Assembly (NCBI GenBank): GCA_016290295.1
Contig: JAEETJ010000002.1
Location: 143,583 to 207,582, forward strand
DNA length: 64,000 nt
From: Bacteroidales bacterium
Lineage (GTDB): Bacteria; Bacteroidota; Bacteroidia; Bacteroidales; WCHB1-69
Direction of reading: 5' to 3'
The translations under genes and the position numbers were made by a program. The notes below the pieces were generated by a model, which was given only the letters and a program-made list of their open reading frames with translations, did no database searches and was not told the origin of the DNA. Position 1 is the stretch's first letter. Each line of letters begins with the position of its first letter. This document shows positions 6,378 through 62,285 of the stretch, piece by piece.

Positions 6378-7742
6378 ATGATTGACCTCTCGCATATTGG
6401 TGATTTCTCACGACAATACTTCGTTTATAATCTCTATTTGAAATTCTTTCATAATCATTTGTATTATAGAAAGTTGCATGTTGTTAATAGAGAGCGTATA
6501 CCTGCCAAAGGTGAACCTGTGTTGGTGATTTATAATCATCAGAACGGCTTGAATGATCCGTTGAACATCTTGTATATGTTCGATGATTACCGCCAGCCAG
6601 TGTTCATTGCCAGAGGCGATATTTTCAAGAAGGATAGGATAGCGAAAATCCTTCGTTTCCTGAAAATTCTGCCTACTTTCCGCACCCGTGACGGAGGTGT
6701 TAGCGACATCAAATACAATATGACTTCCTTCAACTTGGCAGCGGATGTATTGAACAATGGCGGCACGTTGGTTATTGCTCCCGAGGCGCAGCACCAGCAG
6801 GGACGCTATTTGGGCAGTTTCAAAAAGGGATTTCCCCGCATCGCCTTTGCCGCCGAAGAAAAAGCTGATTTCAAATTGGGTTTGAAGATTCTGCCGGTCA
6901 ATATTCACTACAAGGATTATTATAACGCCCGTTCGGAAGTGGTGCTGACCGTTGGGGAGCCATTCGGTTGCTCTGAATTTGCGGAGAACTTCAAGACTGA
7001 CCCGAATATTGCTTACGGACTGCTTAATGACAAGGCCAGGGCCTGTTTGAAGGCTATCACGCCAGATATTGAAGCTCATGAGGAATATTATGAGGAGATA
7101 GATTTGCTGCGCCAAATGTGGGTGAAGAAACGTCTGGAGAAGAAGGGTCTTTCAACTTCCTATTTCCCAAATTACCCAGCAGAAGAGGTTATGCTATTAC
7201 AGGAAATTTCTGCTATGCAACAGCAGAAGCCTCAGAATTTTTCAGATCTAATGACAACTGCTCGCGAGTACTTGGATGAGTTGCAAAAATTGAATCTAAG
7301 AGATTGGATTATAGGAAGAAAAGTTAATCTTGCTAAAGTGTTGCTTTATACTGTTGCAGCGGTTGTCGCTTTCCCATTTTTCCTCTTTGGATTGATTAAT
7401 AATATCATTCCTTTTGCAGTGCCCGCAATGCTACGAAAAAAGATAAAAGACCGCCAGCTTCATTCCTCTTTCAATTTTGTGGGGGCACTGGTGTTTTTCA
7501 CCATCTTCTATCTGCTGGTATTTGCGATTATATGGATTGCCTCTAAAAGTTTCCTGTGTGCATTAGGCTATTTGCTGCTGATGTACTTGTCATTTTTCGC
7601 TTTTTATCACTTCAAGCGAGGATTTATCAAACTGAAAGCCTTATGGCGGTACTACAAGCAGCACCGTGCCGGTCAAACCAAGCGGGCAGAGGAGCTGAAA
7701 GCGGAGCTAATGCGCTATGAAATTAGTAAATTAGCAAATTAG
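6378..7742 (+). CDS. PlsC-like phospholipid/glycerol acyltransferase
   Basis: 454-residue membrane-associated acyltransferase. The N-terminal half has the acyltransferase block NHQNGLNDPLN (His about 54, here with five residues between His and Asp), a GGVSDIKYN region, and the EAQHQQGRYLGSFKKG block that binds the glycerol-phosphate-like acceptor. After about residue 315 come two long hydrophobic stretches (VLLYTVAAVVAFPFFLFGLI and FNFVGALVFFTIFYLLVFAI region) and a third near 395-412. Likely acts in membrane lipid synthesis; the acceptor cannot be read from sequence. The last codons (ISKLAN, stop) are part of an intergenic AATTAGTAAATTAGC repeat, so the true tail is repeat-derived. Confidence 0.85.
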   Translation: MIDLSHIGDFSRQYFVYNLYLKFFHNHLYYRKLHVVNRERIPAKGEPVLVIYNHQNGLNDPLNILYMFDDYRQPVFIARGDIFKKDRIAKILRFLKILPTFRTRDGGVSDIKYNMTSFNLAADVLNNGGTLVIAPEAQHQQGRYLGSFKKGFPRIAFAAEEKADFKLGLKILPVNIHYKDYYNARSEVVLTVGEPFGCSEFAENFKTDPNIAYGLLNDKARACLKAITPDIEAHEEYYEEIDLLRQMWVKKRLEKKGLSTSYFPNYPAEEVMLLQEISAMQQQKPQNFSDLMTTAREYLDELQKLNLRDWIIGRKVNLAKVLLYTVAAVVAFPFFLFGLINNIIPFAVPAMLRKKIKDRQLHSSFNFVGALVFFTIFYLLVFAIIWIASKSFLCALGYLLLMYLSFFAFYHFKRGFIKLKALWRYYKQHRAGQTKRAEELKAELMRYEISKLAN

Positions 7743-7790
7743 TAAATTAGCAAATTGGTTAATTGGCAGTTAGTTATTAATTGCCAATGA
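7721..7790. repeat. TAAATTAGC-type tract spanning a stop codon
   Basis: Units of AATTAGTAAATTAGCAAATT begin inside the last codons of the acyltransferase and continue to the end of the convergent galM gene. ATTGGCA at 7762 pairs with TGCCAAT at 7782, a weak hairpin between the convergent genes. Confidence 0.7.
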
Positions 7791-8799
7791 GGGGGAACCT
7801 GTATTTTGTGTGACTTTTGTAGGTTTCGTCGGGTCTCAGGAAGGCATTGGATTCTGGCCAGTGCTGGTTGGGGGAGTCGGGGAATTTTTGCGTTTCGAGG
7901 CAGACAGCGCTGCGTTGTTGGTAGGCGATGCCGTTCTTGCCAATGACGCTGCCATCGAGGAAGTTGCCGGCATAGACCTGCATCCCCGGCTCGGTGGTGA
8001 AGATTTCCATTGCAATGCCTGTGACGGGACTTTCCAGTCGGGCGCAGGGACGGGAATCGTCGCCTTTCGTGTTCAGCACCCAGTTGTGGTCGTAGCCGCG
8101 ACCGATGCACAATTGCTCATAATCGGCGTCAATATCGCGACCAATTGCTTTCGCCTGGCGGAAATCCATCGGGGTTCTGTCCACGGAAGCCAACTCGCCC
8201 GTGGGGATAAAGCTTTCGCCGATAGGCGTATAGCGGCCAGCATCAATCGTCAGCAGGTGGTTAAGGATGTCGGTAGAGGCATCGCCATTGAGGTTGAAGT
8301 AGCTGTGGTTGGTCATGTTGATGACGGTCGGTTCGTCCGTAACCGCCTCATATTGAATGTCCAGTGCATTGTCGTCCGTAAGCATGTAGGTGACACGGGC
8401 GCACACATTGCCCGGGAATCCGCTGTCGCCATCCTCGCTGACTAAGCTCAGCACCAGCCGGCTATCACTCACAGACTCCACATTGAACATGCGGTACTGC
8501 CAGCCGTCGGGTCCGCCGTGCAGGCAGTGTTTGCCATCGTTCTGCGGCAGTTGATACACATGGCCATCAATAGTTATCTGTCCGTTATTCAGTCTGTTAG
8601 CGTATCTGCCAATCACTGCCCCAAAGTCAGAGCGGTGCTTTTCGGGCAGATAATCCTCCAGTTTGTCAAAGCCCAGCACCACATCCCGCATTTCGCCATT
8701 CTTGTCAGGCACCCACATTTCGACAATTCGCCCCCCGAGATTGGTGATGGCGGCGCTCATGCCGTTGCGGTTCCGTAACTTGAATAAGCGTGAATCCAT
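7777..8799 (-). CDS. galM: aldose 1-epimerase (mutarotase)
   Basis: Interconverts alpha and beta anomers of galactose or glucose in the cytoplasm or periplasm. 340 residues, normal length. Substrate-binding and catalytic signatures are present: the RYANRL region, NHSYFNLNG with the catalytic His, and VCLETQKFPDSPN with the catalytic Glu near the C terminus. No signal peptide is visible. It starts at the ATG at 8799 (MDSRLF), two codons inside the longest frame, whose TTG belongs to a repeat tract. It lies 16 bases after the GH97 glycosidase, so glycosidase product (sugar anomers) and mutarotase are co-expressed. Confidence 0.93.
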   Translation of the reverse strand: MDSRLFKLRNRNGMSAAITNLGGRIVEMWVPDKNGEMRDVVLGFDKLEDYLPEKHRSDFGAVIGRYANRLNNGQITIDGHVYQLPQNDGKHCLHGGPDGWQYRMFNVESVSDSRLVLSLVSEDGDSGFPGNVCARVTYMLTDDNALDIQYEAVTDEPTVINMTNHSYFNLNGDASTDILNHLLTIDAGRYTPIGESFIPTGELASVDRTPMDFRQAKAIGRDIDADYEQLCIGRGYDHNWVLNTKGDDSRPCARLESPVTGIAMEIFTTEPGMQVYAGNFLDGSVIGKNGIAYQQRSAVCLETQKFPDSPNQHWPESNAFLRPDETYKSHTKYRFPLIGN

Positions 8800-8832
8800 T
8801 GTCAACTGTCAATTATCAATTGTCAATTGTCA
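8799..8832. repeat. TCAATTG-type tract between galM and GH97 gene
   Basis: Copies of GTCAATTATCAATTGTCAATTGT fill the 16-base gap and form the last codons of the GH97 gene (VTIDN, stop). Confidence 0.7.
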
Positions 8833-11756: not shown

Positions 11757-11873
11757 GTTTCGGGTTATAGGTTACAAGTTACAGGTGTTAGGGAGAGGTG
11801 GTTAGTAAGGTTAGGAAGGTTAGGAGTAATAACTATCAATTATTAATTGTTAATTGTCAATTGTTAATTGCCC
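11757..11873. repeat. composite intergenic repeat tract
   Basis: Several families in series: GGTTATAGGTTACAAGTTACAGG, GGTTAGTAAGGTTAGGAAGG, then TTATTAATTGTTAATTGTCAATTG. The last unit runs into the stop codon of the lipoprotein at 11864 (tail LMGN). Confidence 0.75.
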
Positions 11874-12367
11874 ATCAGATTATCCGCAAACGGGTCGAGA
11901 ATATGCAAGTTGAAATCGGGCGTGGCGAAGCACATGAAGTCCGTTTTCTCTCCGTTCTGGTAATAACTGGCTGAAATCCAATAGAGTAGTAGTATATGAT
12001 TATCAGCGGAGTCACTGTCTTCTATTGCTCTGAAATAGTCGGTCTGGGTAGTTATCTGGCGTAGCGAGCGGCTGATTGATTCTATGCGCTTGTCGTCATC
12101 GGCCAACGTGGCTTCATCATATAATTGCTTGTACTGAAATTCCAGATTTTCAAGCATTTCCAGCATCAGCTTGGCGTATGACATTTGTGTGAGAGTGTCC
12201 AGTCGATTGACCACCACCGAATCCGCATCACTTACATTCAGTTCATTAAGGACGTATGTCTCAGCACAACGATGGATGTTCTCCTGAAACACATCCACGG
12301 TGGCCTTCTTATGACATCCGCATAAGAAAAATACCATAGCACATAATAAAATCGATAAATATCTCAT
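11864..12367 (-). CDS. small lipoprotein of unknown function
   Basis: 167 residues; leader MRYLSILLCAMVFFLCGC with a lipobox at LCGC (Cys18), then a helical, acidic mature part. I do not recognise a domain. It is flanked on both sides by long composite repeat tracts, so whether it shares a transcript with its neighbours is unclear. The final residues GN and the TAA stop fall in a repeat unit (GGCAATTAAC), the same termination seen for galM (IGN). Confidence 0.7.
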   Translation of the reverse strand: MRYLSILLCAMVFFLCGCHKKATVDVFQENIHRCAETYVLNELNVSDADSVVVNRLDTLTQMSYAKLMLEMLENLEFQYKQLYDEATLADDDKRIESISRSLRQITTQTDYFRAIEDSDSADNHILLLYWISASYYQNGEKTDFMCFATPDFNLHILDPFADNLMGN

Positions 12368-13667: not shown

Positions 13668-13834
13668 CAAAATAATTAGCAAATGAACAAATTGGTAAAT
13701 TAGTGATTAGGGATTAGGGGATAGAAGTTAGAATTCAAAGTTCAAAGTTCAAAATTAAATGTTCTAATGGTTAGGACGGTTAATTATCAATTATTAATTA
13801 TCAATTGTTAATTGTTAACTGTTAATTGTTTTTT
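13668..13834. repeat. composite intergenic repeat tract
   Basis: Contains TTAGCAAATGAACAAATTGG, GATTAGGGATTAGGGGATAG, TTCAAAGTTCAAAGTTCAAA, GGTTAGGACGGTTA and TTATTAATTATCAATTGTTA units. The last ones form the C terminus (QLTVNN) and stop codon of the symporter. Confidence 0.75.
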
Positions 13835-15283
13835 GCTGATGGCAAGTAAGCAGAAAAATACTAAAGCTCCGTTCAGTATCAGCAGTTCGAAGCCGAATTT
13901 GTATCCGTTGAAGAGCTGCTGGGAATTTTTGGAGAGCACATAGCATATACATGGCACAAGAACCGCGATGAACGGAATAGCCCATGTCTGTCGGATGGTG
14001 CGTTTGGTGAAGATACTGAACACAAACAAGCCGAGAATGGGACCATAAGTATAGCTTGCCACCATGAAAATGGTGCGGATAATGGCATCGTTATGGTGTT
14101 GCGAGAAGATGATGATAATGGCCACGAATATCAGTGAAATGCACACATGCACTAATCGTCTGACGGTGGTCTGTTTTTTCTCATCCGTGAAACGTTTCTC
14201 AATGTTCAGCATATCATAACAGATGGCGGTGGTGAGAGCGGTAAAGGTTCCGTCAGCACTGGAATAACCTGCTGAAATTAAGCCGATTACAAAGAATATG
14301 GCCGCAACTTTATCGAGATGGTTGAATGCCAATTCTGGGAATATCCTGTCAGTCTTACCCGCAGCAATCATACCACTCAAGTCTATGCCTTTATGCTGGG
14401 CATACACCAGCATACTGCCGCCTAAAAGTAGGAATAAAGCATTGACTATCACTAAAATACCTGTGAATGACATCATGTTACGCTGGGAGTCTTTCAGGGT
14501 TTTGCATGACAGATTTTTTTGCATCATATCCTGATCCAAACCCGTCATGACAATGGTGATGAACATGCCGCCAAAAATCTGCTTGAGGAAATGGGTGTTG
14601 GAATGCCAGTCTGTATTAAAGGTTTTAGTGTATCCCGCTTGGTCCATTTCCCGCCACATGTCGCTGAAATTGTAACCTAACGATTTGAAAATCACTACCA
14701 AAGTGATGATCAAAGCGGTTAGCATAAAGGTGGTTTGCAAGGTGTCGGTCCATACCACGGTTTTCAGTCCGCCTTTGAAAGTGTATAATAGTATAATGAT
14801 AATCATAACGCAGGCTGTAACCCATATCGGTATGCCCCATGCATCGAAGACAAAAGTTTGTAAAACAAAGATAACCAAATACATACGTAATGCAGAACCC
14901 AGCAAACGAGATAGGATGAATAGGGCAGAGCCGGTTTTCTGTGCGGTATTGTCAATGCGTTGCCCGAGGAATTCGTAAATAGAAGTAAGGTTGTATTTGT
15001 AGTAGATGGGTAACAGCACGTATGCAATAGTCAGATAACCAAGAATATAGCCGAGTACTACCCCGAAATAGGTGAACTGGGTGGTAGCCACATCGCCGGG
15101 AACCGACATAAAGGTGACACCAGAGAGGGATGCGCCAATCATGCCGTAAGCCACGACAAACCAAGGCGATTTCCGATTGCCCGTAAAGTAGGTTTTGTTG
15201 TTGGCCTTGCGGGAAGTGAGGCCCGTAATTACAAATAACAGAATGGTATAGAGAATGAAAAAGGTGAAAATTAGAGTCTGCAT
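13808..15283 (-). CDS. sodium:solute symporter (SSS family)
   Basis: Inner-membrane Na+-coupled transporter; substrate not determinable by eye. 491 residues with about 13 hydrophobic segments, the first at 1-22, and family patterns TGNRKSPWFVVAYGMIGASL (SSS TM1 region), VTFMSVPG, YKYNLTSIYEFLGQR and the GYSSADGTFTAL region near residue 335. The neighbour across a shared promoter region is malic enzyme, so an organic acid is one possible substrate (inference). The ATG at 15283 follows a -7 box at 15315-15322. The last six residues QLTVNN are repeat-encoded and identical to those of HisS. Confidence 0.88.
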   Translation of the reverse strand: MQTLIFTFFILYTILLFVITGLTSRKANNKTYFTGNRKSPWFVVAYGMIGASLSGVTFMSVPGDVATTQFTYFGVVLGYILGYLTIAYVLLPIYYKYNLTSIYEFLGQRIDNTAQKTGSALFILSRLLGSALRMYLVIFVLQTFVFDAWGIPIWVTACVMIIIILLYTFKGGLKTVVWTDTLQTTFMLTALIITLVVIFKSLGYNFSDMWREMDQAGYTKTFNTDWHSNTHFLKQIFGGMFITIVMTGLDQDMMQKNLSCKTLKDSQRNMMSFTGILVIVNALFLLLGGSMLVYAQHKGIDLSGMIAAGKTDRIFPELAFNHLDKVAAIFFVIGLISAGYSSADGTFTALTTAICYDMLNIEKRFTDEKKQTTVRRLVHVCISLIFVAIIIIFSQHHNDAIIRTIFMVASYTYGPILGLFVFSIFTKRTIRQTWAIPFIAVLVPCICYVLSKNSQQLFNGYKFGFELLILNGALVFFCLLAISKKQLTVNN

Positions 15284-15334: not shown

Positions 15335-15342
15335 TATTTTTG
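15335..15342 (+). promoter_or_regulatory. -7 box for the malic enzyme gene
   Basis: TATTTTTG followed by CA. It overlaps the TTG that opens the longest frame and therefore shows that translation starts further down, at 15382. Confidence 0.75.
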
Positions 15343-15381
15343 CAAGCTGATTTTTTGCAGCAAAAAACGAATGTCTTTGAT

Positions 15382-16827
15382 ATGAAAACCCTCGACAAGA
15401 TTGAATCTCTTTTTCCTGCCGACTTTACGGAAGAGCAGAAGGCTATGGCTAAAACTTTGTTTTTTAAAAATTTAGCACTAAAAGCCCATGAATTTTACGG
15501 TGGGAAAATCCAAACCGTACCATTGGCACCGATATATGGTTTCAACTGGTTCAATGTGTGGTACACCCCGGGTGTGTCAGCCGTTTCTACTGCCATCCGT
15601 GATGACAATGACCGTTCGTTTGAGCTGAGCAACCGCAAGAACTTAGTGGCGGTGGTGAGCGATAGCACCCGCGTGTTGGGTGATGGTGACTGTACCCCTC
15701 CCGGCGGTCTCGGCGTAATGGAAGGCAAGGCTATGTTGATGAAGTATTTGGGTGGCGTGGATGCAATTGCCTTATGTGTGGATAGCCGTGACGAGAAAGG
15801 GGAACATCAGCCTGAAAAACTGATAGAACTGGTCAAGATGGTGCAGCCATCATTTGGTGCCATCAATCTGGAGGATATTTCCCAGCCCAATTGCTTCAAG
15901 GTGCTGGACGAGCTGCGCGAGCAGTGTAATATCCCTGTCTGGCACGATGATGCCCAAGGTACTGCTTGTGTGACACTGGCCGGCATTCTCAACGCTTTGA
16001 AGCTGACAGGCAAGAAGTTGTCGGAAATCAAGACTGTTTTGTACGGTTCAGGTGCCGCCAACACCTGCATCGCCCGACTGATGATTAGCGATGGGGCAGA
16101 CCCGAAGAAGATGATTATGTTCGACAGTAAAGAAGCTCTGCATGACCAGCGGGAACGCTATAGTGGCGATGCCCGTTATTATCGTCAGTGGGAACTTTGC
16201 CAAATAACTAATCCTGAGCATATTAAGACTGAAGAAGAAGCCTTCAAGGATGCTGATTTGCTGGTGGCTCTGTCCAAACCTGGTCCCGATACCATTAAGC
16301 CTGAATGGATTAAGCTGATGGCTGACAAGGCGATAGTTTTCGTTTGTGCCAACCCGGTGCCGGAAATCTATCCATACAAGGCTAAGGAAGCCGGTGCTTA
16401 CATTGTGGCTACTGGTCGTGGTGATTTCCCCAACCAGGTGAACAATTCGGTGTGTTTCCCGGCCATCCTGAAGGGCACACTTTTGGTCTCCGCTCGCAAG
16501 ATTACCGATGAGATGGCTATTCGCGCCGCTCATTCTATTGCCGACTTTGCTGAAGAACGGGGCATTAGTGTGGATAACATTATGCCCAACATGCTCGAGA
16601 GTGCCCTCTTCCCCAAAGTGGCCGCTGATGTGGCTATGCAAGCCATCAAAGACGGCGTCGCTATCAAAAATCTGACCTGGGACGAAGTGTATCAGCAGGC
16701 CAAGAAAGATATCGACAAAGCTCATGAAATGAGCAACTTGCTGCAAGAAAAAGGCCTGATTCCTGAATTCCCAGAAGAGCTGATCCGTGAAACAGTGAAG
16801 GAGGTGGTGGAGGAAGTTAAGAATTAA
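15382..16827 (+). CDS. malic enzyme (NAD(P)-dependent, decarboxylating)
   Basis: Converts malate to pyruvate and CO2 with reduction of NAD(P). 481 residues. Motifs: YTPGVSAVS, VMEGKAMLMKYLGGVDA, INLEDISQPNCF, PVWHDDAQGTAC (metal-binding Asp), a Rossmann motif VLYGSGAAN (usually GAGAAG) and GRGDFPNQVNNSVCFPAI. The pattern GDGDCTPPGGLGVMEGKA differs from the usual GLGNIG form. The ATG at 15382 is preferred over a TTG at 15340 because the -7 box covers that TTG. The C terminus has a coiled Glu/Val-rich tail and runs into AACTAAA-type repeats. Confidence 0.92.
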   Translation: MKTLDKIESLFPADFTEEQKAMAKTLFFKNLALKAHEFYGGKIQTVPLAPIYGFNWFNVWYTPGVSAVSTAIRDDNDRSFELSNRKNLVAVVSDSTRVLGDGDCTPPGGLGVMEGKAMLMKYLGGVDAIALCVDSRDEKGEHQPEKLIELVKMVQPSFGAINLEDISQPNCFKVLDELREQCNIPVWHDDAQGTACVTLAGILNALKLTGKKLSEIKTVLYGSGAANTCIARLMISDGADPKKMIMFDSKEALHDQRERYSGDARYYRQWELCQITNPEHIKTEEEAFKDADLLVALSKPGPDTIKPEWIKLMADKAIVFVCANPVPEIYPYKAKEAGAYIVATGRGDFPNQVNNSVCFPAILKGTLLVSARKITDEMAIRAAHSIADFAEERGISVDNIMPNMLESALFPKVAADVAMQAIKDGVAIKNLTWDEVYQQAKKDIDKAHEMSNLLQEKGLIPEFPEELIRETVKEVVEEVKN

Positions 16828-16940
16828 AAACTAAGAACTAAAAACTAAAAACAATTAAACAACCCAATATTTTTAACTCTTAATTCTTAGTTCTTAACTT
16901 AATTAGCACATTAGCACATTGTTAATTAGCACATTAAAAA
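16824..16940. repeat. composite repeat tract after malic enzyme
   Basis: AAAAACTAAGAACTAAAAAC units, then their near-complement TTAATTCTTAGTTCTTAACT (together a possible long imperfect hairpin), then TTAGCACATTAGCACATTG and AATTAGCACATT units leading to the next gene. Confidence 0.7.
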
Positions 16941-29083: not shown

Positions 29084-29140
29084 ATTAGCAAATTAGTTAA
29101 TGTGCTAATTAGTTAATTATTAAGTGTAATAGCTAGATGA

Positions 29141-29190
29141 TTTTTTGCGACCGCGGGACGTAGTCGCTTACATTGATTCATTTGCTAATT
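29141..29190. repeat. hairpin repeat unit, copy 1
   Basis: Copy 1 of a unit of about 50 bases: T-run, GCGACCGCGGGACGTAGTCGC (29147-29167, imperfect hairpin), TTACATTGATTCATTTGCTA. The second copy starts 69 bases later. Confidence 0.8.
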
Positions 29191-29209
29191 AACCAATTCG
29201 CTAATTCGA

Positions 29210-29259
29210 TTTTTGGCGACTGCGGGACGCAGTCGCTTACATTGATCCATTTGCTAATT
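29210..29259. repeat. hairpin repeat unit, copy 2
   Basis: Copy 2: T-run, GCGACTGCGGGACGCAGTCGC at 29216-29236 forming a perfect 8-bp stem with a GGGAC loop, then TTACATTGATCCATTTGCTA. Differs from copy 1 at a few bases, several in the stem. Confidence 0.8.
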
Positions 29260-29283
29260 AACTAATTTGCAAATTATTTTCCG

Positions 29284-35926: not shown

Positions 35927-36250
35927 ATGGAAAATTTAGAAAAAAATGAAGTTTTGTCAAGAGCAGTTAGAGCAGGGAAGCGTACCTACTTTTTCGATGT
36001 GAAGACCACAAAAAACGAAGAGAAGTATCTGACTATTACAGAGAGCAAGCGTAAATTCAACGCTGACAATGGTACTTTCTTCTATGAAAAACATAAATTG
36101 TTCCTGTACAAGGAAGATTTCACCAAATTCCAGAATGCCTTGGCCGCCGTGTTAGAATTCATTGAAACAGGCAAGATTCCTGATGACATGCTTTTTGACG
36201 CCAACGAGCCCAAAACCGACGACATTAATTTTGAAGACTTGGAGGCCTAA
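35927..36250 (+). CDS. DUF3276 (PUR-alpha-like) nucleic-acid-binding protein
   Basis: 107 residues matching the short DUF3276 family of Bacteroidetes: RAGKRTYFFDVKTTKNEEKY, LTITESKRKF and FYEKHKLFLYKEDFTKF, the repeated beta-strand pattern of PUR-alpha-like single-strand nucleic-acid binders. An acidic C terminus follows. Its stop overlaps the parA start (TAATG), so it should be made together with ParA and ParB; a chromosome-linked role is therefore possible but not shown. Confidence 0.88.
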   Translation: MENLEKNEVLSRAVRAGKRTYFFDVKTTKNEEKYLTITESKRKFNADNGTFFYEKHKLFLYKEDFTKFQNALAAVLEFIETGKIPDDMLFDANEPKTDDINFEDLEA

Positions 36251-37038
36251 TGGGAAAGATTATTGCTGTCGTTAACCAGAAAGGAGGGGTAGGGAAGACC
36301 ACAACTGCGGTCAACCTGGCCGCTTCTTTGGCCGTGCTGGAGCACAAAACCTTGCTGATTGACGCCGACCCACAGGCTAACGCCACATCCGGTGTCGGCA
36401 TTGATCCTGAGCAGGTGGAGCACAGCGTGTATGATTGCATGCTCGGCAACAACTTCGCGACAGAAGTCATCGTGAAAACCGATACGCCCAACCTGGACCT
36501 AATGCCAGCCACCATTGACTTGGTGGGAGCGGAATTGGAAATGATTTCCTTCGACCGCCGCGAGTATCGTATGCGCGACGCTTTGACAGCACTAAAAGAT
36601 GAATACGAGTTTATCCTCATTGACTGTGCTCCTTCACTGGGTTTGATTACCTTGAACGCCCTCGTGGCCGCCGACTCGGTGATAATCCCCGTACAATGCG
36701 AGTATTACGCCCTCGAAGGCTTGGGCAAACTGCTCAATACCGTGCGTCTGGTGCAGTCTAACATGAATCCAGAGCTGACTATCGAAGGTATCCTGCTGAC
36801 CATGTACACCGCCCGCCTGAAACATAACAACGCTGTGGTGGAAGATGTGCGCCAGCATTGCAAAGGCATCGTTTTTGACACCATCATCGTCAGAAATGTG
36901 CGCCTGAGCGAGGCTCCAAGCTATGGGAAACCCATTGTGCTGTATGATGTGCAGTCCAAAGGTAATATCAATTACCTGAATTTGGCAAAGGAACTGCTGG
37001 TGAATAACGGCTATACCTTCGACCAATTAGCAAATTAG
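36250..37038 (+). CDS. parA: chromosome partitioning ATPase ParA (Soj)
   Basis: Walker-type ATPase acting with ParB in chromosome segregation. 262 residues: deviant Walker A KGGVGKTTT at about 11-19, LIDADPQANAT, switch FILIDCAPSLGLIT, PVQCEYYALEGL and VRLSEAPSYGKPI. Chromosomal type, no N-terminal HTH. Overlaps DUF3276 by one base. The last residues (QLAN) and TAG stop coincide with an AATTAGCAAATTAG repeat. Confidence 0.97.
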   Translation: MGKIIAVVNQKGGVGKTTTAVNLAASLAVLEHKTLLIDADPQANATSGVGIDPEQVEHSVYDCMLGNNFATEVIVKTDTPNLDLMPATIDLVGAELEMISFDRREYRMRDALTALKDEYEFILIDCAPSLGLITLNALVAADSVIIPVQCEYYALEGLGKLLNTVRLVQSNMNPELTIEGILLTMYTARLKHNNAVVEDVRQHCKGIVFDTIIVRNVRLSEAPSYGKPIVLYDVQSKGNINYLNLAKELLVNNGYTFDQLAN

Positions 37039-37130
37039 TAAATTAGCAAATGAAATCTGTCTATTTATCTGATTAACTGTATAATTATCTAATTTGCCAA
37101 TTAACTAATTAACTAATTAACAATTTGATT
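37030..37130. repeat. AATTAG/ACTAATT tract between parA and parB
   Basis: TTAGCAAATTAGTAAATTAG units at the parA stop, then AACTAATTAACTAATTAACA leading up to the parB ATG. The 95-base gap is entirely of this kind. Confidence 0.75.
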
Positions 37131-38036: not shown

Positions 38037-38807
38037 ATGAAAAAAATATTGGTAATATTGTCAATCATTCTGAGTCTGTGTGCGATAAGCGTACAGGCTC
38101 AGTCTGTTGATTCTACCCACACTTCTGTAGTGTCTGATACAGCTGGAATTATAATCCAAACTCCTTCAGAAACCAATGATGCTATTCAGGCAGATGTGCC
38201 GAATGCTGTGGCAGACAGTGTGCCTGCTACAACCGTTCGATTAAGGGAAGGACACCGTGGCAAGGGCATCAAAATCAGCTCCGACAAGCCTGCCGAGCAT
38301 GTTTCTGTTTCCGATTCTGTATTACGCAAAAAACACAGTCCAACAGTGGCCGGCTGCCTGTCCATCATTCCTGGTGGTGGTCAGATTTACAACAAAAAAT
38401 ACTGGAAACTGCCCATTGTTTATGTGGCCTTGGGAGTCTCCGGCTATTTTGTCTATGACTTTGCCCATCAAATGACAGTATATAAAAAAGAGTTTATCAA
38501 CCGCCGAGATGGGAATACCGCTTTGTTGAGACCGGATCTCAGAATGGAAACAGATGCAAATATTCTGGAGTCGAAAAACACTTACCGTAGAAGAATGGAA
38601 ATTGCCATAGCTGTTACTACAATTCTGTATTTCCTCAATATTGTGGATGCCGTGGTGGACGCCCATTTGTACTATTTTGACATCTCCGACGACCTGTCAA
38701 TGCAGGTGACTCCGCAGATCAATCAAAACTATATGAATTCTTTGGCACAGCAACACAATAAAACCTCATTCAACTACGGTGTAAACCTTACCTTAAATTT
38801 CAAATAA
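38037..38807 (+). CDS. DUF5683 family secreted/membrane protein
   Basis: 256 residues with a signal peptide (MKKILVILSIILSLCAISVQAQ), a low-complexity region and the DUF5683 core HSPTVAGCLSIIPGGGQIYN, KYWKLPIVYVALGVSGYFVYD with a hydrophobic segment, and RRMEIAIAVTTILYFLNIVDAVVDAHLYYFD. The AGCLSIIPGGGQ element is the family hallmark. Function unknown, probably envelope. Its TAA overlaps the dapB ATG (TAATGG). Confidence 0.88.
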   Translation: MKKILVILSIILSLCAISVQAQSVDSTHTSVVSDTAGIIIQTPSETNDAIQADVPNAVADSVPATTVRLREGHRGKGIKISSDKPAEHVSVSDSVLRKKHSPTVAGCLSIIPGGGQIYNKKYWKLPIVYVALGVSGYFVYDFAHQMTVYKKEFINRRDGNTALLRPDLRMETDANILESKNTYRRRMEIAIAVTTILYFLNIVDAVVDAHLYYFDISDDLSMQVTPQINQNYMNSLAQQHNKTSFNYGVNLTLNFK

Positions 38808-39502
38808 TGGCAAAATTCGCGATTTTAGGCTATGGAAAAATGGGGAAGGAAGTGGAGAAAATCCTTCTGGCACAGCAACAGGAAATTGTGGCAAGAATCG
38901 ACAATGAGGATGACTGGCAGCAACAAAAGGACAATTTCCTTGCCGCTGATGTGGCCGTCGAATTCTCTATGCCGACAGTGGCAGTGGATAATTTCAAGAA
39001 ATGCTTCGATGCGGGAATTCCCTTGGTAGCCGGCACGACAGGCTGGTACGAGCGCATGGACGAAGTGATGGATTACTGCAAGCAAAAATCAGCATTCTTT
39101 ATTTATGGCTCCAACTTCAGCATCGGTGTAAATATCTTTTTTGTAATCAACAAGTTGCTTGCTGACATAATGCGTAAGCAGGAGGATTTTGAGGTTAAGA
39201 TCGAAGAAACTCATCACATCACTAAGAAAGATGCACCCAGCGGGACCGCTATTCACTTGGCTAAAATAATTGAAAATCAATACAATAACCAGTTGGAAGT
39301 TCCCATCACATCCTATCGTTTGACCGATGTTCCGGGTATACACAAAGTGACTTATCAAGCTGAAAATGAAGTTATTGAACTGACTCATACCGCTAAAAAC
39401 AGGGTGGAGTTAGCCAAAGGTGCCGTCAAAGCCGCCCTCTGGCTCATTCAGCACCCGGGAATCTACGATTTCAAAGACATTGCACTAACAATTAACAATT
39501 AA
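38807..39502 (+). CDS. dapB: 4-hydroxy-tetrahydrodipicolinate reductase
   Basis: Lysine/diaminopimelate pathway reductase supplying the cell wall. 231 residues: NAD(P)-binding GYGKMGKEVEKIL at about 8-20, GTTGW, NFSIGVN, catalytic block EETHHITKKDAPSGTA (His-His and Lys) and a C-terminal HTAKNRVELAKGAVKAALWL. Translationally coupled to the DUF5683 gene by the TAATG overlap. It ends ALTINN with its stop inside an AATTAACAATTAATAATTG repeat. Confidence 0.95.
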   Translation: MAKFAILGYGKMGKEVEKILLAQQQEIVARIDNEDDWQQQKDNFLAADVAVEFSMPTVAVDNFKKCFDAGIPLVAGTTGWYERMDEVMDYCKQKSAFFIYGSNFSIGVNIFFVINKLLADIMRKQEDFEVKIEETHHITKKDAPSGTAIHLAKIIENQYNNQLEVPITSYRLTDVPGIHKVTYQAENEVIELTHTAKNRVELAKGAVKAALWLIQHPGIYDFKDIALTINN

Positions 39503-39609
39503 TAATTGATAATTAATAGTTGTAATTCAAAATTCATAATAAATAAACTCATTTTTCGTTATACATTCATTGTCAACTATTAATTATTAATTGTAAACTA
39601 TTAATTATT
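39488..39609. repeat. AATTAATAATTG/TTGTAAACTATT tract before lepB
   Basis: TTAACAATTAATAATTGATA at the dapB end; then TCATTTTTCG..TACATTCATTG and ATTAATTATTAATTGTAAAC up to the lepB ATG. Confidence 0.75.
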
Positions 39610-42133: not shown

Positions 42134-42170
42134 GCAGTTGATAGTTGACAATTAACAGTTGACAGTTATA
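42131..42170. repeat. GTTGATAGTTGACAATT tract
   Basis: CAGTTGATAGTTGACAATTA then ACAGTTGACAGTTATAATA, 7-base units after the DUF4412-like stop codon. Confidence 0.7.
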
Positions 42171-42172
42171 AT

Positions 42173-42208
42173 AAAAAAAGAGGTACTTAAAAGTGCCTCT
42201 TTTTTTTG
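42173..42208. terminator. bidirectional terminator
   Basis: AGAGGTAC pairs with GTGCCTCT (one G-T) around TTAAAA; A-run before, T-run after. Serves the plus gene at 41429 and the minus-strand queF. Confidence 0.9.
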
Positions 42209-42241
42209 TTTTCATATTTTTATGTCTTTAAGACTTAGTGT

Positions 42242-51260: not shown

Positions 51261-52682
51261 ATGCGTAGATTTGCCATTATTTTGCTGATATTTGCACTGT
51301 TATGCGAGATGCTACCATTGCAGGCACAGAACGAATCTTCCGACAAAATTTCTTCTAAAAATTTTGAATACAAATCTACGGAAAAAAATTCAAAGAAATT
51401 ATCTCCGCAGAAAATTTTCTATTTCAAAATTGACGACAATATTTCGCGTCCGTCACAGCGAAAATTAAACAAAGCTATTGAGCAAGCCACTGCACAAGAC
51501 GCTGACATTTTGTTCATGGAATTGAACACTTTTGGCGGTGAGCTGGATGCTGCTGACAAGATGCGAACGGCGCTGCTGGAATGTCCGATTCCGACTATCG
51601 TCTTCATTAACAAAAACGCTGCTTCCGCCGGTGCGCTGATTTCTATTGCCTGTGACTCCATTTACATGGCTCCTGGCAGTTCTATTGGTGCGGCTTCTGT
51701 GGTTGATCAGACTGGCCAGGTTTTGCCCGACAAATACCAGTCTTATATGCGCTCACTGATGCGTTCTACGGCAGAAATGAACGGACGAGACCCGGATATT
51801 GCCCAGGCCATGGTCGATCCGGATGTGGAAATTAAAGGCGTATCGGAAAAAGGTAAAGTGCTGACTTTCACCACATCAGAGGCTATTGAGAACGGTTTTT
51901 GCAATGCAGAAGCCAATGATATGGATGAAGTGTTAAAAAAAGCTGATATTCAGTCATATACCATTGAAAATCAGCAAGAATCATGGATTGACAAAGTCAT
52001 TTCTTTTTTAATTAATCCCATTGTGAGCGGTATTCTCATCATGTTCATCATTGGTGGCATCTATTTTGAGATGCAGGCTCCGGGTATTGGTTTTGCCTTG
52101 CTGGTTTCAGTGGTGGCCGCACTACTCTATTTTGCACCCCATTATTTGGAAGGACTGGCCGCACATTGGGAAATCCTGGTGTTTATTGTCGGTCTGGGCT
52201 TGTTGCTCTTAGAAATATTTGTCGTGCCGGGCTTCGGTGTTACCGGCATCTCTGGCATCATTCTGATGGTGGCGGCACTGGTTCTTACCATGACTTTTAA
52301 TATTGGTTTTGATTTCAGTTTTTCAGCTCCTGAACTTTTTATTGAATATCTGTTTTTGGTGATAGCAGCTTGTTTCGCTGGATTTTTACTCTCACTATGG
52401 TTAGGGAAAAAACTCATTACCGCCGACACACGCTATGGTTCGCTGGCACTGAAAACAAATATGGATACAGATAAGGGCTTTGTGGCACAGGATATGCAGT
52501 TGGCACAATATGTTGGAAAACAGGGGATTGCCTCTACCCTATTGCGACCTGTCGGGAAAATAGAAATTGACGGCGAGTACTTAGACGCTACTTCGGAAGT
52601 GGGATTTATAGACAAAGGCGATCCTATCGAGGTAACCCGCTTTGAGAACGCGCAACTGTTCGTGAAGAGAATTAATAATTAA
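51261..52682 (+). CDS. NfeD-family membrane serine protease
   Basis: 473 residues. Signal peptide (MRRFAIILLIFALLCEMLPLQA), a ClpP-class protease domain with MELNTFGGELDAADKMR, INKNAASAGALISIACD (nucleophile Ser in AASAGA) and GSSIGAASVVD, then four hydrophobic segments (about 245-395), and a C-terminal OB-fold NfeD domain (GKQGIASTLLRPVGKIEIDG). Likely works with a band-7/stomatin protein in membrane quality control, but none is adjacent. Ends RINN in a repeat. Confidence 0.92.
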   Translation: MRRFAIILLIFALLCEMLPLQAQNESSDKISSKNFEYKSTEKNSKKLSPQKIFYFKIDDNISRPSQRKLNKAIEQATAQDADILFMELNTFGGELDAADKMRTALLECPIPTIVFINKNAASAGALISIACDSIYMAPGSSIGAASVVDQTGQVLPDKYQSYMRSLMRSTAEMNGRDPDIAQAMVDPDVEIKGVSEKGKVLTFTTSEAIENGFCNAEANDMDEVLKKADIQSYTIENQQESWIDKVISFLINPIVSGILIMFIIGGIYFEMQAPGIGFALLVSVVAALLYFAPHYLEGLAAHWEILVFIVGLGLLLLEIFVVPGFGVTGISGIILMVAALVLTMTFNIGFDFSFSAPELFIEYLFLVIAACFAGFLLSLWLGKKLITADTRYGSLALKTNMDTDKGFVAQDMQLAQYVGKQGIASTLLRPVGKIEIDGEYLDATSEVGFIDKGDPIEVTRFENAQLFVKRINN

Positions 52683-52807
52683 CAATTAATAGGTTTTAGG
52701 TGTTAGGTTTCAGGGGTCAGTGATTAGTGGTTAATAGTTAATAGTTTTCAGTTTTCAGTTTTCAACTCAATAAATTGGCACATTAGCACATTGATAATTA
52801 GCACATT
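52671..52807. repeat. composite tract between NfeD-type gene and pssA
   Basis: AATTAATAATTAACAATTAA at the stop, then GGTTTTAGGTGTTAGGTTTC, GTTTTCAGTTTTCAGTTTTC, and TTGGCACATTAGCACATTGA units up to the pssA start. Confidence 0.75.
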
Positions 52808-58331: not shown

Positions 58332-59321
58332 ATGGAAAACGACAACTTTATCGATTATGTGAAAATATTCTTCCGTTCGGGTAACGGAGGAGCTGGTTCC
58401 GCACATCTGTTGCGTACCGCCCATGACCCCAAAGCGGGTCCTGACGGTGGCGACGGCGGCCGCGGTGGCGATGTCATCTTGCGTGGCAACCGCAACCTGT
58501 GGACCTTGCTGCACCTGCGCTATACCAAGCATGTGATGGCGGAAGACGGCACCAACGGACAGGGCAACCAGTGCTTCGGCAAGAACGGCAAGACCGCCTA
58601 CGTGGAAGTACCCCTCGGCACCATCGTAAAAGATGCGGAAACCGATGAGTTTATCGGCGAGATTCTGGAAGATGGCCAAGAGTTTGTGGTGCTGCCCGGA
58701 GGCCGCGGTGGTCAAGGCAATGTGCATTTCAAAACCGCTACCCGCCAGACACCACGTTTCGCACAGCCTGGCGAGCCGGGACAGGAAGGCTGGTTTATTT
58801 TGGAACTTAAAGTATTGGCTGACATAGGTTTAGTGGGATTTCCTAATGCAGGAAAATCAACCCTCATTTCCTCACTGTCCAATGCCCGTCCCAAAATCGC
58901 CGACTATCCCTTCACCACCCTCAAACCCAATTTGGGCATGGTGGCCTACAGAAATTTCCAGTCCTTCGTTATTGCCGACATTCCCGGCATCATTGAAGGT
59001 GCTTCCGAAGGCAAGGGTATCGGCCTGCGTTTCCTGCGTCACATCGAGCGCAACGCCGCTTTGCTCTTTTTAGTGCCCTGTATCTCGGAGAACATTAAGA
59101 AAGAATACCAGATCCTGCTGAATGAGCTGAAAGCCTATAATGAGGAGCTGATGGACAAGAAACGGGTGCTGGCCATCACCAAATGCGACCTGATGCCCGA
59201 GGAAGAACTAAAAAAACTGGAGAAGAAAGTGCCCAAAGATATCCCCGTCATTTTCATCTCCGCCCATGCGCAGAAGAATTTAACGCAGTTGAAGGATAAG
59301 TTGTGGGAGATACTGCACTAG
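58332..59321 (+). CDS. obg: Obg/CgtA GTPase
   Basis: Ribosome-assembly GTPase. 329 residues. Obg fold (1-158) with [34 protein letters not shown] domain with G1 [32 protein letters not shown] and TKCD. Lacks the C-terminal OCT domain, as in many Bacteroidetes. Operon with pyrE. Confidence 0.96.
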
Positions 59322-59352
59322 TTAACAGTTAACAATTAACAATTAATAATTT
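59320..59352. repeat. TTAACAG tract after obg
   Basis: AGTTAACAGTTAACAATTAA begins at the TAG stop of obg. Confidence 0.7.
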
Positions 59353-59355
59353 ATA

Positions 59356-59402
59356 GTTGCGGTGGAACCGCAACCGCCGCATACAGCAACCGCCGCATAC
59401 AG
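59356..59402. repeat. hairpin plus 16-base tandem repeat before hisS
   Basis: GTTGCGGT (59356-59363) pairs with ACCGCAAC (59367-59374) around GGA; then CAACCGCCGCATACAG occurs twice in tandem (59371-59386, 59387-59402). Confidence 0.8.
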
Positions 59403-59431
59403 CGATTAGCATACCAAAATCAACAATAATT

Positions 59432-60796
59432 ATGGTAAAACCATCAATACCAAAGGGAACAAGAGATTTCGCACCGACTGAGATGATTCGGCGCAACTAT
59501 ATTTTCGACACCATTAAAATCGTATTCAAGAAGCACGCATTTCTGCCTATTGAAACACCTTCTATGGAGAATTTATCCACGCTAATGGGCAAATATGGTG
59601 AGGAGGGCGACCGCCTGCTGTTCAAGGTGCTGAACTCTGGCGACTTCAAGCAAGGCGTTGATTTTGAAAACCTTAACAGCAATCAGCTGACCTCGAAGAT
59701 TTGCGAGAAAGGCTTGCGTTACGACCTGACCGTGCCTTTTGCCCGCTATGTGGTGCAGCATCAGGCGGAAATTTCATTCCCCTTCAAGCGGTACCAGATG
59801 CAGCCTGTATGGCGTGCCGACAGACCTCAGAAGGGTCGCTATCGTGAGTTCTATCAGTGCGATGTGGATGTCATTGGCAGCACCAGCCTGCTCAACGAAG
59901 CTGAGCTGATGCAGATTACCGATGAGATTTTCCAGTCGTTTGGAATACCTGTAGTCATCAAGATTAACAACCGCAAAATCCTCTCTGGCATTGCCGAAGT
60001 GGTAGGCGAAGCCGACAAGCTGACCGACATCTGCACCGCCATCGACAAGTTGGATAAAATCGGCAAGGACAAGGTTTGCGAAGAGCTGAAGGAACGTGGT
60101 TTGAGCTGTGAAGCCATCGGCAAAATGGCTCCCTTCTTCTGCTTCTGCGGCAGCAACGAGGAAAAACTGGCTCAATTAGATAAAATATTCGCTAACAGTG
60201 AGATAGGACAAAAAGGCTTGAGCGAGATTCGCCAGATGTTAGCCTATGCTTCACAAATGGATATCAAGGCGGAAATCGAGCTTGACATCACCCTGGCCCG
60301 TGGCTTGAACTATTACACTGGCGCCATTTTCGAGGTGAAAGCACAGAACGTGTCCATCGGCAGCATCTCTGGCGGTGGCCGCTACGATGACTTGACCGGT
60401 ATTTTTGGTCTGAAGAACATGTCGGGTGTGGGTATTTCCTACGGAGCAGAGCGTATCTACGATGTGCTCAATGAGTTGAATCTCTTCCCCACCAACATCG
60501 ACTCCCCCATCAAGGCCTTGTTCATCAATTTTGGAGAAAAAGAAGAGCTGTATGCCCTGAAAGGCCTGCAGGTATTGAGACAAGCTGATATTGCGTCGGA
60601 GTTGTATCCCGAAAAAGCCAAGATTGGCAAACAGATGACCTACGCCAACGCCAAAGCCGTACCTTTCGTCATCATGGCAGGTGCCGATGAAATGGCAGAA
60701 AATGTTTATACACTGAAAGATATGAACAGCGGAGAACAGCGGAAGCTGAGTATTGAGGAGATACGAGAGGCGATACAGTTGACAGTTAACAATTAA
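59432..60796 (+). CDS. hisS: histidyl-tRNA synthetase
   Basis: Class II synthetase. 454 residues from the ATG at 59432 ([15 protein letters not shown]). Motif 1 region [27 protein letters not shown], motif 2 [25 protein letters not shown] (the RYREFYQCD core), the histidine-A site [14 protein letters not shown] and motif 3 GGGRYDDL...[12 protein letters not shown]-terminal anticodon-binding domain follows. The final residues QLTVNN are repeat-encoded (stop in AACAATTAATAATTAATAG). Confidence 0.97.
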
Positions 60797-60853
60797 TAAT
60801 TAATAGTTATTATTCATTGTCCATTATTCATTATTAATTATCAATTATTAATT
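60779..60853. repeat. TTGACAGTTAACAATTAATA tract after hisS
   Basis: Begins within the last codons of hisS and continues with TTATTCATTGTCCATTATTC and TTATTAATTATCAATTATTA up to the next start. Confidence 0.75.
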
Positions 60854-60860
60854 TAAGATA

Positions 60861-62285
60861 ATGTCTGAGGAGAATAACACAACAGCTGCAGTGCCTGAGG
60901 AGGATACCGTCCGGAAAAAGCCCGAGAATTCCAAGTGGAATAAGTTTCTACGGGACACGCTGGCATGGGTCAAGCGGACCATCCGTATTCATGAGGATAC
61001 GGACTATGAGGCCACAGTCAACAGCATTAACAGTGCGATTTCCTTCAAGGGCATTAATGTCTGGATTCTTTTCTTCGCCATTATTGTCGCTTCTGTGGGT
61101 TTGAACGTGAATTCCACGGCGGTCATTATCGGTGCCATGTTGATTTCGCCGCTCATGGGACCTATCATGGGCATAGGTTTAGCCATTGGTACGACTGACA
61201 GTGACATGTTGAGGCTCTCTTTGCGGAATCTCTTGGTCATGGTGGGCATAAGCCTTTTAGCCTCAACTTTTTATTTTGTTCTTTCTCCTTTGGGAGATGC
61301 ACAGTCGGAATTGCTGGCCCGTACCAGACCCACCATTTTTGATGTGCTGATCGCCTTTTTCGGTGGTGCCGCCGGCATTGTCGCCACCTCAAGAAAATCG
61401 CAGCCTTTCACGGTCATCTCAGGTGTTGCCATTGCCACCGCCTTGATGCCGCCGTTATGTACCGCAGGCTATGGTTTGGCTACCGCACAGTTTAGGTATT
61501 TCTTTGGAGCCTTCTATCTTTTCTTCATCAACTCCTTCTTTATTGCTCTTGCAACCTTTTTGATTGTCAAATATTTACATTTCCCTCAAAAGAAATATCT
61601 GAATAAAGCCCGTGAAAAACTGGTCAAACGGTCCATCAGTGTTTTCTCCATTATTGTTGTCATTCCCAGTGTCATTATAGCTCTGCATGTCATCCGTGAG
61701 ACCTCCTTTAACACATCCGCCAACAAATTTATCACCGAGATACAGGAGTCGCCCTATTTTGAACATTCACAGCTTATTAGCTACAAAAAAGAATTCGGAT
61801 ACAAAGAGCAGAGCATCATGTTGTCGGTAGTGGGCAAAGAAATCACCCCTGAAGAGATCACCCACATTCAGACCTTGATGCGCAACCAATATGGCTTAAA
61901 AAATGCCAATCTGATAGTCAAACAGACCGAACATTTCTACTCTTCACAGAATGAAAATGAGGTTATTGAGAAAATCATAGAGCGCAAAGACGCCCAACTG
62001 GCTGAATATCAGCAGCGAATTGACGAATTGGAAAGCGAGTTAGACAAACTCAACACCAATGAAAAGACCAACCAACAGATTGCCAAAGAGTTAGCGGTTC
62101 AATATCCATCCATTACCTCTTTTTCGGTAGTTAAGTTGGTTTACACAGACACCAAAAGTTTGAAAACCGACACCATCCCTACCCTTTTCATCGAAAGCAC
62201 TCACAGCTTAAGCAACGAGCAGAAACAAAAGCTCCTCCAATGGCTGCGGGTACGCTTAGAGGAGCCGAAGTTGGAGATAAAATAA
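60861..62285 (+). CDS. DUF389 / TIGR00341 membrane protein
   Basis: 474 residues: cytoplasmic start, six to seven membrane helices between about 65 and 285 including STAVIIGAMLISPLMGPIMG, the family hallmark, FFGGAAGIVATSR and ATALMPPLCTAGYGLATAQF, then a large soluble part with a coiled coil (about 370-415, EVIEKIIERKDAQLAEYQQR). Function unknown. Confidence 0.9.
   Translation: MSEENNTTAAVPEEDTVRKKPENSKWNKFLRDTLAWVKRTIRIHEDTDYEATVNSINSAISFKGINVWILFFAIIVASVGLNVNSTAVIIGAMLISPLMGPIMGIGLAIGTTDSDMLRLSLRNLLVMVGISLLASTFYFVLSPLGDAQSELLARTRPTIFDVLIAFFGGAAGIVATSRKSQPFTVISGVAIATALMPPLCTAGYGLATAQFRYFFGAFYLFFINSFFIALATFLIVKYLHFPQKKYLNKAREKLVKRSISVFSIIVVIPSVIIALHVIRETSFNTSANKFITEIQESPYFEHSQLISYKKEFGYKEQSIMLSVVGKEITPEEITHIQTLMRNQYGLKNANLIVKQTEHFYSSQNENEVIEKIIERKDAQLAEYQQRIDELESELDKLNTNEKTNQQIAKELAVQYPSITSFSVVKLVYTDTKSLKTDTIPTLFIESTHSLSNEQKQKLLQWLRVRLEEPKLEIK

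Follow-up and report, generated by a model that had tools for sequence, protein, structure and literature searches.

The last codons and the stop codon of hisS, in the 64,000-nt stretch of Bacteroidales DNA analysed here (the window), lie within an array of heptamers which continues into the downstream spacer, and the same terminal hexapeptide, QLTVNN, is found in an unrelated sodium:solute symporter. The locus raises the question whether intergenic repeats have become the C termini of unrelated proteins, and whether the stops that they supply explain their presence at gene ends. The most probable explanation is that arrays of 7- and 8-bp units, in spreading, have overwritten the native ends of genes, a side effect that is tolerated, and that they are not selected as stop signals. 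This reading is built on the units themselves, their excess over chance, the crossing of stop codons, the geometry of the reading frames, and the different families and tails found at orthologous gene ends.

The genome holding the window (G000), that of an uncultured bacterium, measures 3.19 Mb in 94 contigs, with a contamination value of 3.9% on record; the closest named record to its HisS (96% identity) is a genome from a yak abomasum metagenome. Gene calls, made by a simple home-made hexamer caller, number 351 in a 447,582-bp G000 sample and 52 in the window. Comparisons were made with members of the same genus (G001 to G008), two of which, G005 and G008, are poor in arrays. Around hisS, the genus stretches compared agree in gene order over only about 3 to 6 genes at a time, and orthologues were therefore paired by reciprocal best hits. 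Array totals vary with the thresholds set in Tandem Repeats Finder (205 at score 40 and periods 5–30, 242 at score 36 and periods 5–16), and the stop-spanning arrays of G000 number 34 by a looser rule and 25 by the rule used for the main counts.

Arrays at gene ends in the window

An array of 7- or 8-bp units spans the stop codon in 9 of the 52 genes called in the window. At hisS (59357..60796, + strand; Pfam tRNA-synt_His and HGTP_anticodon) the array, read directly at 60776..60810 (+) as TTGACAG, TTAACAA, TTAATAA and TTAATAG units, encodes the tail QLTVNN and the TAA stop (60794-60796), and extends further downstream. Tandem Repeats Finder calls only 60792-60853, the units upstream having been read by eye. 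Farther on towards the DUF389 gene, over the second half of the spacer (60811..60853, −), the same heptamer family is found inverted, again by direct reading; for 60776-60863 only a weak RNA fold is predicted (z −1.85). A TTAACAG/TTAACAA array at 59322..59351 (+) begins at the first base past the stop of the preceding gene (58332-59321).

The symporter gene (13808-15283, −) is crossed by an array at 13779..13830 (−). The sequence-only reading held the ends of HisS and symporter to be identical, which is correct for the peptide (QLTVNN-stop in both), but not fully for the DNA, as 2 of 21 nt differ, both by synonymous transitions. Other crossed genes are dapB (38807-39502; array 39486..39546, +; tail LTINN), nfeD (51261-52682; array 52670..52691, +; tail RINN), and the GH97 gene (8816-10906), over the stop of which lies a TTGACAA array (8798..8832, −; tail VTIDN). 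Arrays of the octamer AAATTAGC cover the stops of a ParA-type gene (36250-37038; array 37025..37051, +; tail QLAN) and of an acyltransferase gene (6378-7742; array 7720..7768, +; tail KLAN). The stop of the gene at 11864-12367 is covered by an array at 11838..11870 (−; tail LMGN). Nine array-ended genes had been listed from sequence alone. The stop is crossed, according to Tandem Repeats Finder, in eight of them; in galM (PLIGN) it is not, the array lying 8 nt past the stop (in window numbering, the octamer array at 7720..7768 halts 8 nt before the galM stop at 7777). The gene at 15340-16827, crossed by an AACTAAG-type array (16818..16852, +; tail EEVKN), was absent from that list. Pfam supports the assignments of HisS, ParA-type AAA_31, DapB, SSF symporter, NfeD, GH97, aldose epimerase and acyltransferase; the product of 11864-12367, previously read as a putative lipoprotein, matches no Pfam family.

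In some window spacers one heptamer family is inverse on the two sides (584-619/648-693, 39486-39546/39565-39610, 60776-60853), and some of the 3' halves shade into TGAATAA-like units near the middle. At 42134-42241 a stop is immediately followed by a heptamer array, beyond which comes an ordinary stem with a T-run; the terminator at this place is thus probably not the array.

Repeat families, reading frames and shared tails

Tandem arrays with units of 7 and 8 bp are dense in the spacers of G000 and belong to many families (TTAACAA/TTGACAA, AATTAAG/AACTAAG, AAAATTC, AAAACTG, AACCCCT, AAATTAGC, AATGTGCT, and others). The pattern TTAACAGTTAACAATTAA is matched 31 times in the window with up to 3 mismatches, against 0.09 matches expected from shuffles; exact matches in the whole 3.19-Mb genome are 16, and the reversed pattern has 1. 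Exact tandem duplications in G000 intergenic DNA peak at period 7 (149 vs 9.2 in shuffled DNA) and period 8 (49 vs 1.8). Shorter periods are close to the shuffled values (period 4, 267 vs 298; period 5, 81 vs 101; period 6, 46 vs 29; ratios 0.8 to 1.6), periods 9 and 14 have 9 vs 0.6 and 6 vs 0 duplications, and at each period from 10 to 13 there is 1 at most. Periods 7 and 8 are similarly enriched in G002 (134 vs 13.2 and 52 vs 4.4) and G006 (157 vs 11.0 and 44 vs 3.6). Such a sharp periodicity points to a specific copying process.

A strict three-unit TTAAYAR pattern is very unevenly distributed. Of the 104 genomes of the family 40 have it, as do 52 of 295 genomes of an order sample; the backward-read pattern, which mostly matches the same arrays, is unusable as a control in this survey. 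Matches abound in G000 (155), G003 (184) and G006 (90), and are few or absent in G002 (8), G005 (2) and G008 (0). G002, poor in TTAAYAR, is still rich in arrays of other families.

Since 7 and 8 are coprime to 3, an array yields a single cyclic peptide whichever frame of a strand is read, 21 nt corresponding to three heptamer units and seven codons. One frame was translated for each unit, the agreement of the three frames being a matter of arithmetic. TTAACAA is thus read as LTINN-stop-Q, AAAACTG as KTEN-stop-KL, TTAAGAA as LRIKN-stop-E, and the octamer AAATTAGC as KLAN-stop-QIS. Stop-free readings are given by CAACTGT (QLSTVNC) and AAAATTC (KIQNSKF). When the cyclic peptide includes a stop, a gene entering the array must end within about three units, and tails are suffixes of the same short words (QLTINN-stop, QISKLAN-stop, KLKTEN-stop). 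The 62 crossing arrays of G000, G002 and G006 penetrate genes by 4 to 23 nt, as detected, and the stops of the crossed genes are TAA in 26, TGA in 22 and TAG in 14. Two G000 genes carry, 20 to 25 nt before the stop, an additional array from a stop-free family, which makes their repeat-written tail longer, as in GDRRQVTGDRSELRTKN. The stops result from the length and the content of the units.

Stops are crossed in 25 of 351 genes in G000, 18 of 356 in G002 and 19 of 274 in G006, and in 4 of 188 and 2 of 157 genes in the array-poor G005 and G008 (62/981 vs 6/345, p 0.0005). Asparagine is the last residue in 22 of the 25 crossed G000 proteins and in 29 of the 326 others (p 6e-18); it ends 9 of 18 crossed proteins in G002 and 9 of 19 in G006. 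Genome-wide, 14.5% of G000 proteins end in N. In G005 and G008 about 11% of the proteins also end in N, although N accounts for 5.9% of the residues, and the genome-wide excess alone is therefore weak evidence; the split between crossed and uncrossed genes is the stronger evidence. Sharing of tails among proteins, to which the sequence-only reading had pointed, is above chance. Pairs of proteins with the same last four residues are 9 in G000, 7 in G002 and 5 in G006, while means of 1.2, 0.7 and 1.1 pairs, with a maximum of 3 each, were found at the 14 internal offsets used as a control. The figures for the array-poor members are 3 vs 0.5 (G005) and 0 vs 0.6 (G008). Some shared tails have no repeat origin, as CVRD, which resembles the tail of a paralogue, and KMKK, which is lysine-rich.

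That the common tails are a chance outcome of AT-rich DNA is hardly credible. The frequency of terminal N in array-poor relatives would fit this explanation, but the number of TTAACAGTTAACAATTAA-type matches, the peaks of duplication at periods 7 and 8, and a tail sharing which exceeds that of all the 14 internal offsets in G000, G002 and G006 argue against it.

Orthologous gene ends and the role of stops

Alignment with orthologues, suggested along with the initial observation, supports the replacement of native tails by arrays: HisS, ParA, DapB, symporter and NfeD orthologues flanked by other repeats, or by none, lack the tail residues. HisS ends with QLTVNN in G000, with EIREIIAATL in G007 and G002, the hisS spacers of which carry different repeats (as GGTTACA and AATTAAG), and with DDIAKRF in the array-poor G005. 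In the predicted structure of HisS (mean pLDDT 80) the last helix, residues 455-466, spans most of the tail, and residues 461-468 have a mean pLDDT of 76. DapB ends with ALTINN in G000, ALTI in G002 and ALDM in G005; AAAACTG-type units give the ends ALKVEN (G006) and ALKVES (G003), and TTAAGAA-type units ALSIKN (G007). ParA ends with TFDQLAN in G000, and with TFE in both G003 and G006, each having a different repeat behind; the other ends are TFNESANE in G002, YSF in G005, and a long tail lacking an array in G007. At the G003 and G007 loci of this comparison the repeat families were read by eye, in place of Tandem Repeats Finder. NfeD ends with RINN in G000 and RIQNS in G002, the latter from AAAATTC-type units; here, as at the G006 dapB end, families were read by eye, Tandem Repeats Finder reporting none. 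One G002 gene ends with KQLTVNN and its G006 orthologue with KQVSVIRG, encoded by a different heptamer family.

Orthologue pairs were 124, one of which was left out of the tail comparison because its downstream sequence was too short. Where a stop is crossed by an array, 3 of 17 pairs agree in all of the last four residues; 10 of 21 do so where the array is adjacent only, and 43 of 85 where there is none, the mean body identities being 88, 88 and 85%, respectively. The difference between crossed pairs and the rest (3/17 vs 53/106) has a p of 0.017, with some of the 17 crossed pairs coming from one gene. An array is found near the stop in neither genome in 86 of the 124 pairs, in one genome in 25, and in both in 13; in these 13 the families differ in 9 and are alike in 4. 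Counterexamples were also met: the GH97 protein keeps VTIDN in G000 and G002 despite a differing downstream array, and one G000 gene retains TINS and the array in G006.

The turnover of families at 9 of 13 orthologous ends bears on a regulatory explanation, by which arrays are sites for protein binding or mRNA folding, and tails the mere overlap of a site with a gene. A regulatory role has been proposed for the TAACTGA repeats of Beggiatoaceae, in the sections of MacGregor 2015 (PMC4679880) available, and array copies are inverse in some of our spacers. Besides changing family between orthologues, however, arrays are sparse right before starts, where they cover 0.03 of the nearest 10 nt in G000, and array spacers fold barely more strongly than others. 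Median folding z values of array and array-free spacers are −2.0 vs −1.4 in G000, −2.0 vs −1.5 in G002, and −2.3 vs −1.2 in G006 (32, 23 and 27 array spacers, 40 array-free spacers each), so the difference is only slight. We regard a regulatory role as improbable.

A reading of the arrays as hairpin elements was tried and rejected. Among 188 pairs of neighbouring arrays 18 are inverted, 6 direct, 1 ambiguous and 163 unrelated, and random array pairs are inverted and direct in 64 and 57 cases of 1800; the excess of inverted over direct neighbours is biased by the repeat finder, which merges direct neighbours, and the folding of array spacers is, as given above, hardly stronger than that of array-free ones.

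It had also been suggested that in-frame stops are a selected property of the arrays. No orientation bias was found downstream of genes. Among arrays beginning 0–60 nt after a stop (2-nt overlap allowed), and counting stops in two or more frames, stops are carried by the sense strand only in 60, the antisense strand only in 47, both strands in 75, and neither in 27 (60 vs 47, p 0.25). Arrays upstream of starts behave likewise (51 vs 36, p 0.13). Being unbiased in orientation, downstream arrays appear to occupy the spacer up to the tolerated limit. The share of G000 positions covered by arrays is 0.07 over the final 10 nt of genes and 0.15 to 0.20 within 30 nt past stops; it is 0.13 to 0.17 between 30 and 120 nt, and 0.10 to 0.13 farther out. 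At 10–40 nt before starts the density is 0.08-0.09.

Retention of arrays at gene ends as all-frame stops, a selected fail-safe against readthrough, is accordingly very unlikely, although some data could be taken in its favour. Crossed stops outnumber crossed starts (25 vs 1 in G000, 18 vs 5 in G002, 18 vs 2 in G006); the scarcity of arrays near starts may reflect the need for a clear leader. The array density in G000 is highest 10-30 nt past stops (0.20 of positions vs 0.10 to 0.17 further out). Heptamer units which are stop-free on both strands are under-represented, both when weighted by locus (4.9% vs 18.7% in letter-shuffled units) and among the 75 distinct units (14.7% vs 27.9%). This deficit, which may be biased because the gene caller requires stops, is the only result leaning, mildly, to selection for stops, and it is not seen in octamers (13.9% vs 15.7%). 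Against selection stand the lack of a sense bias downstream of stops, matched upstream of starts, and the scarcity of arrays in some relatives of the same genus.

Arrays within proteins, spread and precedents

When the stop-free strand is read, an array can stay in frame within a protein, as is seen in loops and linkers, and in some species only. Arrays of period 7 or 8 entirely within called genes are 21 in the G000, G002 and G006 samples, a few of which touch a gene end or may be artefacts of the caller; nine such proteins were read. In shikimate dehydrogenase (AroE; Pfam Shikimate_dh_N) a loop array was found in 4 of 9 genus members. G002 and G004 carry NCQLSTVNYQLSTINCQL between NCVK and GYNTD, G006 a shorter form, and G003 an array plus another repeat; the loop hosts a palindromic repeat in G001 and G007, is free of arrays in G000 and G008, and is different in G005. 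The PfkB kinase features NNCQLSTINCQ in G003, G004 and G006, and lacks it in G000, G001, G002 and the second G004 copy (3 of 7 close copies have it). A PD-(D/E)XK nuclease (Pfam PDDEXK_1), which we take to be AddB-like, hosts arrays in 6 of the 8 members in which it was found, the exceptions being G005 and G008, with up to three segments made by mosaics such as IQNSKFKIQN, NCQLSTVN and HNAQCTM. In the M14 peptidase of G000 the linker between the Ig_7 and Por_Secre_tail domains contains NCQLSTDNYQL, and INSQFNFQNSKLKI is found at the same place in G006. In G001 and G007 the AddB-like gene shifts frame near the last repeat segment, the remainder being in another frame; this reflects either a change in the length of an array within coding sequence or a faulty assembly. 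The matching comparison is with contingency (phase-variable) repeat loci, in which unit number varies within a strain and a frame is switched.

In array-free relatives the PfkB and AroE sites hold no array seed recognizable by eye, which favours arrival in blocks. No element boundary, terminal repeat or target duplication, of which the last two are marks of MITEs, was noticed when blocks were compared with relatives by eye. Arrays would arrive, or be exchanged, as multi-unit blocks, and would then gain and lose single units; selection would purge those that break genes, and survivors would be found in spacers, tails and loops. Indel lengths in orthologous spacers have no peak at 7, in poor and noisy intergenic alignments, and clean one-unit differences between G000 and G006 are three only.

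The arrays could alternatively be a mobile short repeat, comparable to Rickettsia palindromic elements or MITEs, inserted in blocks in trans by a transposase or similar enzyme. Identical families at many loci, the patchy distribution among close relatives (155, 184 and 90 TTAAYAR matches in G000, G003 and G006, 2 and 0 in G005 and G008), and the blocks at PfkB and AroE sites are in keeping with this origin. It is nonetheless doubtful, because arrays have no fixed length, mix families within one spacer and are copied unit by unit, and because related arrays are a minority among neighbours (163 of 188 pairs are unrelated).

Rickettsia palindromic elements, reportedly described by Ogata in 2000 and 2002, have a palindromic core. 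They are the nearest precedent for in-frame insertion. In the parts available of a review (PMC10969869) they are presented as short non-coding repeats of about 150 bp, all having an ORF that encodes a conserved peptide, which are found in frame in unrelated genes and are seemingly tolerated. The in-frame arrays of AroE, PfkB and the AddB-like nuclease, missing in some orthologues, are similar in this respect. In contrast to Rickettsia palindromic elements, arrays are tandem 7- and 8-mers of variable length, belong to many families, and also end proteins.

The sequence-only reading knew of no description of repeats supplying gene ends, yet stop-codon-overlapping heptamers, together with the three-frame argument, are found in the accessible sections of MacGregor 2015 (PMC4679880). 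There, direct repeats of the TAACTGA heptamer are reported in Beggiatoaceae, Cyanobacteria and five Bacteroidetes. Thirteen arrays overlap stop codons, covering at most 18 nt of the ORF end, and reverse repeats, chiefly peripheral, are translated within 11 ORFs; indels between two Cyanothece strains are mainly in 7-nt steps, and the distribution is patchy. Both systems, as far as those sections go, feature intergenic tandem heptamers, here above chance (149 vs 9.2 at period 7), with the stop-bearing orientation at ORF ends only (reach 4-23 nt here) and the stop-free one inside ORFs. Tandem TAACTGA pairs, however, are 0 in each of five genus samples analysed here. TAACTGA repeats are described in the same sections as mostly pointing to a nearby start codon, whereas our arrays are sparse at starts and cross stops; unlike TAACTGA repeats, they include many families, one family and its tail replacing another between orthologues.

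Excerpts of Delihas 2007 (PMC2759123) deal with the enterobacterial RU-1, RU-2 and RU-3 mobile sequences, measuring 103-168 bp and found at 24 annotated gene loci. These too are small intergenic repeats fused to genes, and in one 3'-end case the native stop was lost and a new C-terminal tail acquired; as depicted in the excerpts, and in contrast to our arrays, they are not made by tandem short units. GGGNATC-type heptamers are, according to the available portions of Rehm 2015 (PMC4692102), abundant in Xanthomonas and Nostoc, intergenic, and located near stop codons, some of them over the codon; they are G-rich, are proposed to form G-quadruplexes, and exhibit four-unit and strand preferences, whereas the arrays analysed here are mostly AT-rich, and have no strand bias downstream of stops. 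A literature search, the scope of which included few subscription papers, retrieved no paper describing such arrays in rumen Bacteroidales, or the exchange of array families at orthologous gene ends.

Tentatively, tandem 7- and 8-mers might be viewed as frame-independent peptide cassettes, which yield the same terminating tail from the stop-bearing strand and the same linker from the stop-free one, the spreading units changing the ends and loops that core enzymes have (HisS, DapB, ParA, AroE, PfkB, the AddB-like nuclease) from species to species. If so, arrays would be a standing supply of new protein ends and linkers for selection. The genus offers a natural experiment, in which intergenic repeats alter protein sequences at orthologous sites, and the rate, limits and cost of non-coding DNA becoming protein could be measured. 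For the annotation of such genomes, common C-terminal words, low-complexity linkers and shifted gene ends need not imply a common function.

Palindromes are also present in the window. Two 69-bp copies bearing the palindrome GACCGCGGGACGCAGTCGC are found at 29139-29275, and GGACGCACG, a palindrome which resembles it, occurs in further spacers as well as within AroE, in the loop of the G001 and G007 proteins.
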